A stretch of DNA of 60,817 bases, taken from contig JASJDA010000015.1 of NCBI GenBank assembly GCA_030065755.1, positions 1 through 60,817 on the forward strand, written 5' to 3'. Shown here in pieces: positions 31,055-34,360 of the stretch. The notes under the pieces are model-generated. The model made no database searches. It worked only from the letters and a program-made list of their open reading frames with translations, and was not told where the DNA came from. Each line of letters starts with the position of its first letter. The stretch's first letter is position 1. The DNA comes from Prochloraceae cyanobacterium. GTDB lineage: Bacteria > Cyanobacteriota > Cyanobacteriia > Cyanobacteriales > JASJDA01. The position numbers and the translations under genes were made by a program.

Positions 31055-31582
31055 TTAAATATAGTTTGGTATTAAAGTTGTCAGTTTTTCTTCTCTTAAA
31101 TCTTTGCCGAATTTTTGTTCTAGCATATAAGAAGCTTTAGCATAATTATTTCTTGGCGCTACAAAGCTAGTTGTTTTAGGATAGGCAAGAAAACTCACTA
31201 AGTCTTCAACAGATTTAGCAATAGGTACTCCTGTGCTTTCCAAACCTTCGGCTAGCTCGATTTGATGGTCGTCTACGTGTTCTCCTAACTGATGAAAGCG
31301 CGGCACTAGAATAAATGGCTTGCCGCTTGTTACTAGCAAATCAACAGTTCCTTCTCCACAATGAGCAATAATTAAGCGAGCTTTTTTAACTAAATCTTTG
31401 AATTTATTTTCTGGTAGAAGGGAGAAAGCTTTCACCCCTGATGGCAAAATAGTACAGGAGCCATACTGAATGAAAACTTCTTCTCTATCTGGTTGTAGAA
31501 AACCTTCTTCGATAAGCCGATCGATCCACCGCATCAAGCGATTAAAAGGATATTTTTCTGTACCAACTGTGATGAGAATCAT
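31055..31582 (-). CDS. Alg13/PssE-like glycosyltransferase subunit
   Basis: 175 residues, a single C-terminal GT-B Rossmann domain: MILITVGTEKYPFNRLMRWID, FIQYGSCTI, then ARLIIAHCGEGTVDLLVTSGKPFILVPR, the UDP-sugar-binding site of the GT28/Alg13 group. Alg13-type proteins work only with an Alg14-type partner, which is encoded at 34553-35095 on the same strand, 2.97 kb upstream; the glycanase gene lies between. Together they would add an early sugar to the lipid carrier, as PssD/PssE or EpsE/EpsF do. Confidence 0.87.
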   Translation of the reverse strand: MILITVGTEKYPFNRLMRWIDRLIEEGFLQPDREEVFIQYGSCTILPSGVKAFSLLPENKFKDLVKKARLIIAHCGEGTVDLLVTSGKPFILVPRFHQLGEHVDDHQIELAEGLESTGVPIAKSVEDLVSFLAYPKTTSFVAPRNNYAKASYMLEQKFGKDLREEKLTTLIPNYI

Positions 31583-31830
31583 AATAATTAGATTGCTAAA
31601 TAAATATAAGATAAAGATTGAATTATGGAAATAGTTGAAATAAAATACTTCAGAAATATTTCAAGATAAAAATATCTGAGAAAGAAAAAATTTAAAATTA
31701 ATAACTAATTAATAATATTCACTGTGATTTTAAATTGAATTTTTCCTTTACTTAGTAACAATTATATTCGCTACAGATTTTTTATACCTCAGTGAAAAGT
31801 CTTATTGTCTACTAACAAGAAAAAAAAATG

Positions 31831-31929
31831 TAGGAGTTACTGATTGACAAACATATGAATATATGTGTTAAAAGACGATGCGAACATCTTCTAACACATA
31901 TTAGGCATTCTGTCAACAGAAAACTCCTA
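31831..31929 (-). terminator. 99-bp imperfect hairpin with T-tract
   Basis: TAGGAGTT (31831) pairs with AACTCCTA (31922-31929), TTGACA with TGTCAA, and ATATGTGTTAAAAGA (31861-31875) with TCTTCTAACACATAT (31887-31901) with one mismatch, around an 11-nt loop. On the minus strand the stem is followed by a T-tract of about nine. It would end the glycanase transcript. Size and two-sided symmetry also fit a MITE or a structured RNA. Confidence 0.6.
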
Positions 31930-31983
31930 TTAATCTCGAAAATCTTAGAGATAAATAAATGCAGTAATTATTGCAGGTAAATA

Positions 31984-32089
31984 TCACGACTTGGCAAGTT
32001 AATCGTTGGAATGCGCTCTTCAGAGCCAGAACCCAAGGCTAGAACCCTTATTATTCCGTCGCGAAATTAGCTAACTTGCCAAGTCGTGA
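31984..32089. repeat. 18-bp perfect inverted repeat across the glycanase stop codon
   Basis: TCACGACTTGGCAAGTTA (31984-32001) is the exact reverse complement of 32072-32089, which lies in the last codons of the glycanase gene. The mRNA would form an 18-bp stem with a 70-nt loop that includes the stop codon. Confidence 0.8.
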
Positions 32090-34360
32090 AATATCGTTAC
32101 TACTTAAGGCTAAACCAGGAGATAAAACTGCTAGATCCACTTGAGATTGATCTCCAACCCCATCAACGTCAAATGATAGCATTCCAGTGAGATCGTTATA
32201 AATAAAACGATGGCTAGATTCGGTAGCACTCGAACCCACGTAAAATTGATTTTGAAGCAAAGGAGAACCAGAATAAGTTGTAGGATTCAATCCACCGCCA
32301 AAATTATCAGCATTAATAACTATTTTATCTCCTTGTGAAATTGAAAAATTTTCGATCGTATCTATTCCTTCATTGGGGGAGTTAAAAACAAATTTATCCG
32401 CACTGTTACCACCGACGAGGGTATCATTTCCAGTTCCACCAATAAGTACGTCAAAATCTGCAAATTGAGAAATTAACCACTCTCCTTTTTCAAAGACAAA
32501 ATAATCTACTGTTTCATCCCAGTGCTGACCATCTAAATATTCGGGTTCTTCTAAAAATGCAGTAAAATTGTCGCTTTGAATGTCTTGGATACGAACTGCA
32601 ACTGGTTGACTTCCTACATAAGAATTAACTCGAGCAAAAACTACAGGATTAACATAATCGAAAAGAAGATCGATCTTTGTAAACTGTTCGTCGAGTTCGA
32701 GCGTACCCATTTCACCGACTACATTACCAAAAACATCTCGAATAAAATCAGACCCTTCAGTGCCATTAAAAGCTAAATAATTAACTTCTTCAGTAGCATG
32801 CCAAGTTTCTGAATCTTTACTTTGTTCTTCATCTACTTTGAGTTCTACTCCATCAGTATTTAAATTTTTTAAACGCAACCCAGAAGGATCTGACCCGTTA
32901 TAGGTAGCAATGTTGCTGAGAATTCGAGGTGTTTGATTAAAAGTAGTATTAAGATTTAGCGTTTGAAATTGATGTGAGATCGTATTTCCAGTATTACCTG
33001 CTTCTAAATAATAATCGTTGCTTCCCGATTCGATCGCTAACCAACCAATAGTCTCGGTTCCATGACCGGTTTGATTTAATGCTTCTTCTTCTTCTAATGC
33101 AATTTGGAAACCACCTGTAGTGGTATTTTGTTGGCGAGTGCGAACGAAATCAATGTCATTATATGTTTGTACATTACTAAAAACAAGGGGATTTTGGCTG
33201 AAATTAGCGCCAAAATTAACTGTTTCAAATCCGTCACTGTCAGTAGTGACTTTGTTAGTATCGAAAGTGCCTACTTCTAGTAAAAAAGTAGTCTGGCTAA
33301 TGCTATCGTTACCTGCTTCGAGGCGATCGTTACCAGCACCCCCATCGAGAAGATAATTACCATTTCCTGTAACAGTAAGAACGTCGTCTCCATCAGTTCC
33401 ATTTATTTTATCTGGAGTTCTCTGTAAATCTCCCCAAGCAATTTTTCCTAAATCGGTAAGAATTTCAGTATTAGTACCGTCAAAGTGTTCCCCATGTCCT
33501 CCTTCACCGTAGGTAACGTCATTATTATCCTGCGCTCTCATCGTCCAAACCATTCTACCAATACCGAGCTCGTTAGCAGCTTCGACTGCGCGACGACTAG
33601 CATCTAATGTGTTGATGTTGGCATTTTGATTTTCAGAACCGTATTCGCCAATCATCATGGGAATGCCTAGATTCTGTAAAGCTGTTAAATATGCACGAAT
33701 ATCTTCGTATCCACCAGGATTATCGGGATTATCTTGTTTATTAGTACCGTTCCATTGGTCGTAAATATGGATGTCAAAAATTACATTCTCATTTCCTTCC
33801 ATGACGTCTAGAGCGGAACTAGCTAGTGTTTGAGTGAAATAATCTTGACCCCAAGCTTCTCCGTTAACGACAATGATATTGTTCGCACCTTCAGCACGAA
33901 TGACATCGATTATTTCGCGATGATAACTGACCCATTTTTGAGGATCGGCAGTTGCATTACCTGGTTCGTTAGATAGATTGAACCAAACATTAGGATTGTT
34001 GCCAAACCTTTGCGCCATATCTCTCCAATATTGTAGGAGGATTTCTTTTTCGTTCCCTTTGTAATATCCCCCGATCCGATCGTGAGCGTCAAATATGACA
34101 ACTCCATCATTATCAGTAACAGCATTTGCAATTGCTTCGTTGTTGGCATAGTTATCTTCATTGGGATGAGCTTGACTGTAACTTCCTAATAAATAATTAG
34201 GAACTCTAAGAGCATTAAATCCCCAATCGTTCATATAGGAATCTATATTAGAAGTTCCTTCCCAAGCAAACATATTTGCTCCTTGGATAATAAATTCTTC
34301 GCCATTTGGATCGTATATTTTAGTTCCAATTACTTGAAATCCTTGAGAGATGTTAGACAC
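32051..34360 (-). CDS. Secreted GH5 glycanase with lectin-like repeats and RTX repeats
   Basis: 769 residues. Residues about 5-315 are a GH5 (cellulase/mannanase type) barrel: acid/base E132 in NLSNEPG and nucleophile E239 in MMIGEYGSE. A first RTX-type Ca2+ stretch follows (LDGGAGNDRLEAGND, about 340-355). Residues 358-640 contain three related segments of about 85 residues, each with a FxQNPxVxxxVxTYN-like strand and a W/Y-L-x-x-E/N-G end, resembling H-type lectin repeats. A second RTX element (IGGTGNDTLVGGN) precedes the tail. No N-terminal signal peptide, which with RTX repeats suggests type I secretion. The gene interrupts the Alg14/Alg13 pair and is AT-rich on both flanks. Probably trims the matrix polysaccharide or an outside glucan/mannan. 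Confidence 0.88.
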   Translation of the reverse strand: MSNISQGFQVIGTKIYDPNGEEFIIQGANMFAWEGTSNIDSYMNDWGFNALRVPNYLLGSYSQAHPNEDNYANNEAIANAVTDNDGVVIFDAHDRIGGYYKGNEKEILLQYWRDMAQRFGNNPNVWFNLSNEPGNATADPQKWVSYHREIIDVIRAEGANNIIVVNGEAWGQDYFTQTLASSALDVMEGNENVIFDIHIYDQWNGTNKQDNPDNPGGYEDIRAYLTALQNLGIPMMIGEYGSENQNANINTLDASRRAVEAANELGIGRMVWTMRAQDNNDVTYGEGGHGEHFDGTNTEILTDLGKIAWGDLQRTPDKINGTDGDDVLTVTGNGNYLLDGGAGNDRLEAGNDSISQTTFLLEVGTFDTNKVTTDSDGFETVNFGANFSQNPLVFSNVQTYNDIDFVRTRQQNTTTGGFQIALEEEEALNQTGHGTETIGWLAIESGSNDYYLEAGNTGNTISHQFQTLNLNTTFNQTPRILSNIATYNGSDPSGLRLKNLNTDGVELKVDEEQSKDSETWHATEEVNYLAFNGTEGSDFIRDVFGNVVGEMGTLELDEQFTKIDLLFDYVNPVVFARVNSYVGSQPVAVRIQDIQSDNFTAFLEEPEYLDGQHWDETVDYFVFEKGEWLISQFADFDVLIGGTGNDTLVGGNSADKFVFNSPNEGIDTIENFSISQGDKIVINADNFGGGLNPTTYSGSPLLQNQFYVGSSATESSHRFIYNDLTGMLSFDVDGVGDQSQVDLAVLSPGLALSSNDISRLGKLANFATE

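Follow-up and report, generated by a model that had tools for sequence, protein, structure and literature searches.

Small repeats of mobile type have been proposed to serve as terminators: SPRITE, a small terminator-like repeat of Streptococcus pneumoniae, is suggested in PMC3049150 to have been co-opted in this way, and MITEs are the subject of a review (PMC10969869). Among full-size insertion sequences, the ISCysp20/ISCysp21 group of the IS701 family is annotated in plasmids of Gloeothece citriformis and Rippkaea orientalis, and 4-bp target duplications are described for IS701 elements in PMC2266710. A limited literature search on IS701 and MITEs, which took in part of PMC9208149, found no description of an IS701 MITE. 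Here we examine a 99-bp palindrome in a 60,817-nt stretch of DNA from Prochloraceae cyanobacterium (contig JASJDA010000015.1 of assembly GCA_030065755.1), referred to below as the window. We conclude with considerable confidence that it derives from an IS701-family insertion sequence resembling ISCysp20 and ISCysp21, as a miniature element that is degenerate and non-autonomous.

The palindrome opens with TAGGAGTT (31831) and closes with AACTCCTA (31929), and it sits in a 468-bp intergenic stretch with minus-strand genes on both sides (Table 1). Its arms pair in three main blocks, consisting of 8 bp at the termini, about 9 bp at CTG/TTGACA and a longer inner stem; there are small interruptions, and the loop of 4–7 nt varies with the strand. 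Compared with each other without gaps, the arms are identical at 14 of 19 positions. Folded as RNA, the interval 31811–31949 reaches −45.4 kcal/mol on the minus strand (z −7.67) and −35.7 kcal/mol on the plus strand (z −5.90), and none of 200 dinucleotide shuffles folded as well on either strand. Folded as DNA, the 99 nt give −22.1 kcal/mol (z −7.61). The long hairpin and its three-block pairing, both reported in the initial annotation, are therefore real: the coordinates were exact, both strands fold far better than shuffles, and the folds bear out the blocks. The arms had also been described as ending, on the minus strand, in a T-tract. Nine T residues do follow at 31828–31820, after CA, and they belong to the sequence outside the palindrome.

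Table 1. Positions in the window of the palindrome, its putative parts and the flanking genes.
Feature	Position	Strand	Basis or remark
Gene for a protein with a glycosyltransferase family 28 C-terminal domain, first gene downstream of the palindrome (minus strand)	31055..31582	-	ORF and domain match
T9 tract, host flank outside the palindrome, 2 nt past the stem	31820..31828	-	Intrinsic-terminator-like layout
Whole palindrome, probable IS701-derived miniature element with ends head to head	31831..31929	.	Fold and end matches
Left terminal inverted repeat TAGGAGTTACTGATTGACA	31831..31849	+	Similarity to IS701 ends
Right terminal inverted repeat TAGGAGTTTTCTGTTGACA, GAAT next inwards	31911..31929	-	Several own-genome IS ends likewise have GAAT
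GH5 cellulase gene, upstream in the orientation of the terminator-like layout	32051..34360	-	Pfam PF00150

Both outer tips read TAGGAGTT-N5-TTGACA, which is the form taken by the ends of an IS701-family insertion sequence. We searched the organism's own genome (8,455,803 bp, or 8.46 Mb, in 455 contigs, the window being contig 226) for such ends. Allowing up to three mismatches, the left tip matches 14 sites, itself included, compared with four for the reversed pattern, and nine of the 13 other sites read TAGGAGTTTCGCATTGACA. Exact matches to the 19-nt motif TAGGAGTTNNNNNTTGACA number 11, namely the two tips of the hairpin and nine sites with the sequence TAGGAGTTTCGCATTGACA. When one mismatch is tolerated, the motif occurs at 27 sites, versus 14 for the reversed control.

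Several of these ends belong to full-size elements. Contig C367 carries two facing ends, both among the nine TAGGAGTTTCGCATTGACA sites, that bound a 1,695-bp element; its transposase is in broken pieces, with stops inside, and the pieces match NCBIfam IS701_2 with E values of 2.8e-70 and 2.1e-14, below the cut-off. On C429, two ends (one with a single mismatch), separated by 1,380 bp, enclose a stop-free transposase frame that scores 363.8 bits against IS701_2 (cut-off 250) over profile positions 9–315 of 318. The transposase of the copy on C25, at 281.4 bits, is also above the cut-off. Aligned with an own-genome IS end, the left tip is identical at 16 of 19 positions and the right tip at 15 of 19, the latter continuing inwards with GAAT as several own-genome ends do.

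Because the fixed positions of the motif TAGGAGTTNNNNNTTGACA were picked after the tips had been seen, the test was repeated with profiles built without the hairpin. A 36-nt profile was made from 11 IS ends of the own genome and applied to 781,627 bp in 45 stretches, a non-random sample in which many contigs were chosen for an IS end or for the repeat that neighbours the hairpin. The tips score 28.8 at 31831 (+) and 23.6 at 31929 (−). In the rest of the sample, the seven of the 11 training ends that fall inside it score 47.8–56.9, the next non-training site scores 11.7, and the maximum of the reversed profile is 11.4.

A second profile drew on other cyanobacteria. In plasmids, the IS701 transposase is best matched by IS701-family elements from cyanobacteria, ISCysp20 and ISCysp21 among them. 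Ten elements were fetched from the best 15 of 372 matching records, and six were used. The remaining four were set aside: the Gloeothece verrucosa element in a duplicate copy; ISPna6 of Polaromonas, which is not a cyanobacterium, with one end that diverges after TTGA; an element of Calothrix brevissima, whose ends start ACAGG; and one of Nostoc UHCC 0302, in which a terminal repeat could not be found. The ends of the six elements run from TAGGA or TAGAA to ACGCATTGACA, and one end has TTGTCA. With the 19-nt profile from these 12 ends, the left tip scores 22.3 and ranks seventh in the sample, behind six own-genome IS ends, where the control maximum is 15.1; at 8.4 the right tip stays under that maximum and is not significant alone. 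Of the two tips, only the left is confirmed by ends from named cyanobacteria. Its identity is 17 of 19 positions with the IS701-family element of Gloeothece verrucosa, at the right end of that element; the right tip of the hairpin matches an end of the same element at 14 of 19.

The initial annotation had read the symmetry of the hairpin as that of a mobile palindrome or MITE and had proposed a genome-wide search for copies. By BLAST at the DNA level, the own genome holds one copy. A search there with the two inverted tips as a gapped pattern found no second palindrome, and a covariance model built from the palindrome's two strands recovered only the palindrome itself; the multiple dispersed copies of a MITE were thus found by none of the three methods. 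Further afield, there was no DNA match to the whole hairpin in 99 relatives, none to 31600–32120 (hairpin and flanks) in plasmids and none to 31821–31939 in phages, and a stricter pattern, run on a 386-genome sample of the phylum that included the own genome, matched in the own genome only. Matches in the pattern scan of genome contigs are dominated by unrelated GTTGACA-type tandem repeats; among the matches listed, for which 118 stretches were fetched, 121 were judged by eye, of which one is the own copy and none of the other 120 is hairpin-like beyond the pattern. Other marks of a MITE are present. The hairpin is short and non-coding (99 bp, with no ORF of at least 60 aa overlapping it), and its terminal repeats are common to an autonomous element, namely the IS701 elements of the own genome. 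The transposase that defines an IS701 insertion sequence is absent from the hairpin and present in its full-size own-genome relatives. Since the hairpin is single-copy, we call it MITE-like and assign it to no MITE family; the mobile reading holds as to origin, both tips being IS701-type ends, and fails as to copy number.

Such an element would consist of two transposon ends, some 40–45 bp of each, that meet head to head with hardly any interior, and would therefore form one long palindrome. Its ancestor may have been an IS701 copy whose interior was lost, or two ends that fused head to head; the IS701 transposase of a full-size element, acting on TAGGAGTT-N5-TTGACA ends, could once have mobilised it in trans. 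The sequences flanking the hairpin have only TA in common, and this TA may be part of the repeat; judged by eye, the flanks of the six related plasmid elements likewise share only TA. In the one same-genus genome searched (G001) no empty site was found, because synteny is broken at the locus: there the glycosyltransferase and the N-terminus of the cellulase lie at the edge of a contig, and their order differs. The single copy, these flanks and the lack of an empty site weigh against the IS701 derivation, and transposition of the hairpin as a miniature unit is accordingly only conjectural.

A variant of the IS701 origin is that two independent solo ends landed head to head by chance. Solo IS701 ends of about 20–60 nt are present elsewhere in the own genome, which speaks for it; against it, the arms also pair inside the ends, in the inner stem and the shared CTG, which fits one palindromic unit. 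We consider such a chance encounter unlikely, its odds overlapping those of the miniature derivative that we prefer. The apparent solo ends lie on C157, C262, C341, C179, C183, C217, C299 and C359, where about 20–60 nt are shared with end sequences elsewhere and the stretch read contains no partner (profile score >11); the one on C183 has a further repeat in common, more inward. On C367, C43 and C429 (L025, L027 and L032), one IS701 end bears a tandem array of ~21-bp units with GCGATCGC, a motif that is frequent in own-genome sequences and that we take to be HIP1. The frequency of this motif, together with the relatives of the transposase, suggests a cyanobacterial host.

The stability of the fold on both strands, together with the position of the hairpin 248 nt upstream of the start of the glycosyltransferase gene, could also suggest that the hairpin is a small regulatory RNA, or that it serves the gene as a structured leader; a regulatory RNA was among the options first raised. 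Rfam has no family at the gathering threshold over the window and none up to E 5 over 31500–32200. Neither the DNA searches of relatives, plasmids and phages nor the strict pattern in the other 385 genomes of the phylum sample produced a homologue, and symmetry combined with transposon ends accounts for the fold. This option found no support, and we regard it as improbable in the extreme.

On the minus strand the hairpin follows the GH5 cellulase gene, whose RTX and H-lectin matches are weaker and under their cut-offs. In the minus-strand transcript the palindrome would form a strong stem, and the order of stem, CA and T9 is that of the stem and U-tract of a rho-independent terminator. Lying 2 nt before the T9 and 121 nt past the cellulase gene, the palindrome may therefore act as a terminator; we give roughly even odds to a secondary role for hairpin and T9 as a rho-independent terminator or a 3′-end stabiliser. 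Among 350,718 noncoding strand-positions, 370 (~0.1%) have eight or more T in a row within 3 nt, a share that rises to 0.2% when the tract may lie at either end; a tract this close is thus uncommon and hints at co-option, but as one case. A consensus terminator scan, which accepts only stems with loops of 3–8 and T directly after, listed nothing at the hairpin.

One might go further and deny any mobile origin, taking the hairpin for nothing but an oversized intrinsic terminator of the GH5 gene. Its place 3′ of a gene on the same strand, with the T9 two nucleotides beyond the stem, agrees with this, as does the single copy, which by the reasoning of the initial annotation would mark a plain terminator. 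Homology of the ends outweighs that: both tips match own-genome IS701 ends far above control, the presence of TAGGAGTT-N5-TTGACA at each end would be unexplained in a plain terminator, and the hairpin is absent from the consensus scan. A terminator of wholly non-mobile origin is thus very unlikely. Derivation from IS701 adds the locus to the candidate cases in which a mobile-element relic lies where a terminator would be useful; its wider significance is modest. The idea that IS701 ends surviving as solo pieces of ~20–60 bp, together with the co-opted head-to-head palindrome, show one IS family repeatedly supplying a cyanobacterial genome with terminators is a long shot.

The surroundings of the hairpin hold further features. 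Between 31055 and 35095 of the window, the cellulase gene stands between Alg14-like and family 28 glycosyltransferase genes, which usually work as a pair; the gene order at this locus is different in the same-genus genome. Adjoining the hairpin is a second palindromic element of 104 bp (31985–32088). Its terminal repeats are 17 bp long (CACGACTTGGCAAGTTA), and AAATAT on either side (31979–31984 and 32089–32094) forms a 6-bp target duplication. The element has ten matching places in the genome, itself included: three others cover 96–106 bases at 86–89% identity, and six are partial. By eye, the copy on C34 has the duplication TTCGGT and the copy on C317 has no 6-bp duplication. This inserted repeat supplies the last 11 codons of the cellulase gene (RLGKLANFATE) and its stop codon (32051–32088), and similarity of the cellulase to the C-termini of other proteins ends at residues 758–760 of 769, just ahead of the repeat. 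An ungapped inverted-repeat survey of sampled own-genome contigs gave 93 entries, which are no count of hairpins like the one studied here, since the survey missed that hairpin because of the small gaps in its arms. Judged by eye, 14 of the 93 belong to a family of ~100-bp palindromes with AT-rich arms such as TTATTTTTTATAAAGTACCCCTT (for example at L193 2259, L195 17827 and L207 72), apparently another dispersed miniature element.

Together, these results allow an apparently unique hairpin to be assigned to a transposon family by way of its ends, where whole-length similarity fails. Compared with the ISCysp20/ISCysp21 group, it differs in its length of 99 bp, in having no transposase and in the five bases in the middle of the repeat (ACTGA and TTCTG, against ACGCA or TCGCA); it shares with that group the terminal TAGGA(G/C)(A/T)T-N5-TTGACA repeats at both ends, and its own-genome relatives have an IS701_2 transposase above the NCBIfam cut-off. 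Unlike bacterial MITEs, including the cyanobacterial Nezha (cited in PMC10969869), it is single-copy and has flanks that share TA only, although it is short and non-coding and has ends in common with an autonomous element of its own genome, as they do. SPRITE, compared by its description in PMC3049150, carries its U-rich tract within the repeat and has 30 copies in one genome, whereas our hairpin has one copy and borrows its T-tract from flanking DNA; the two are alike in joining an overlong stem to a U-rich tract near the 3′ ends of genes.
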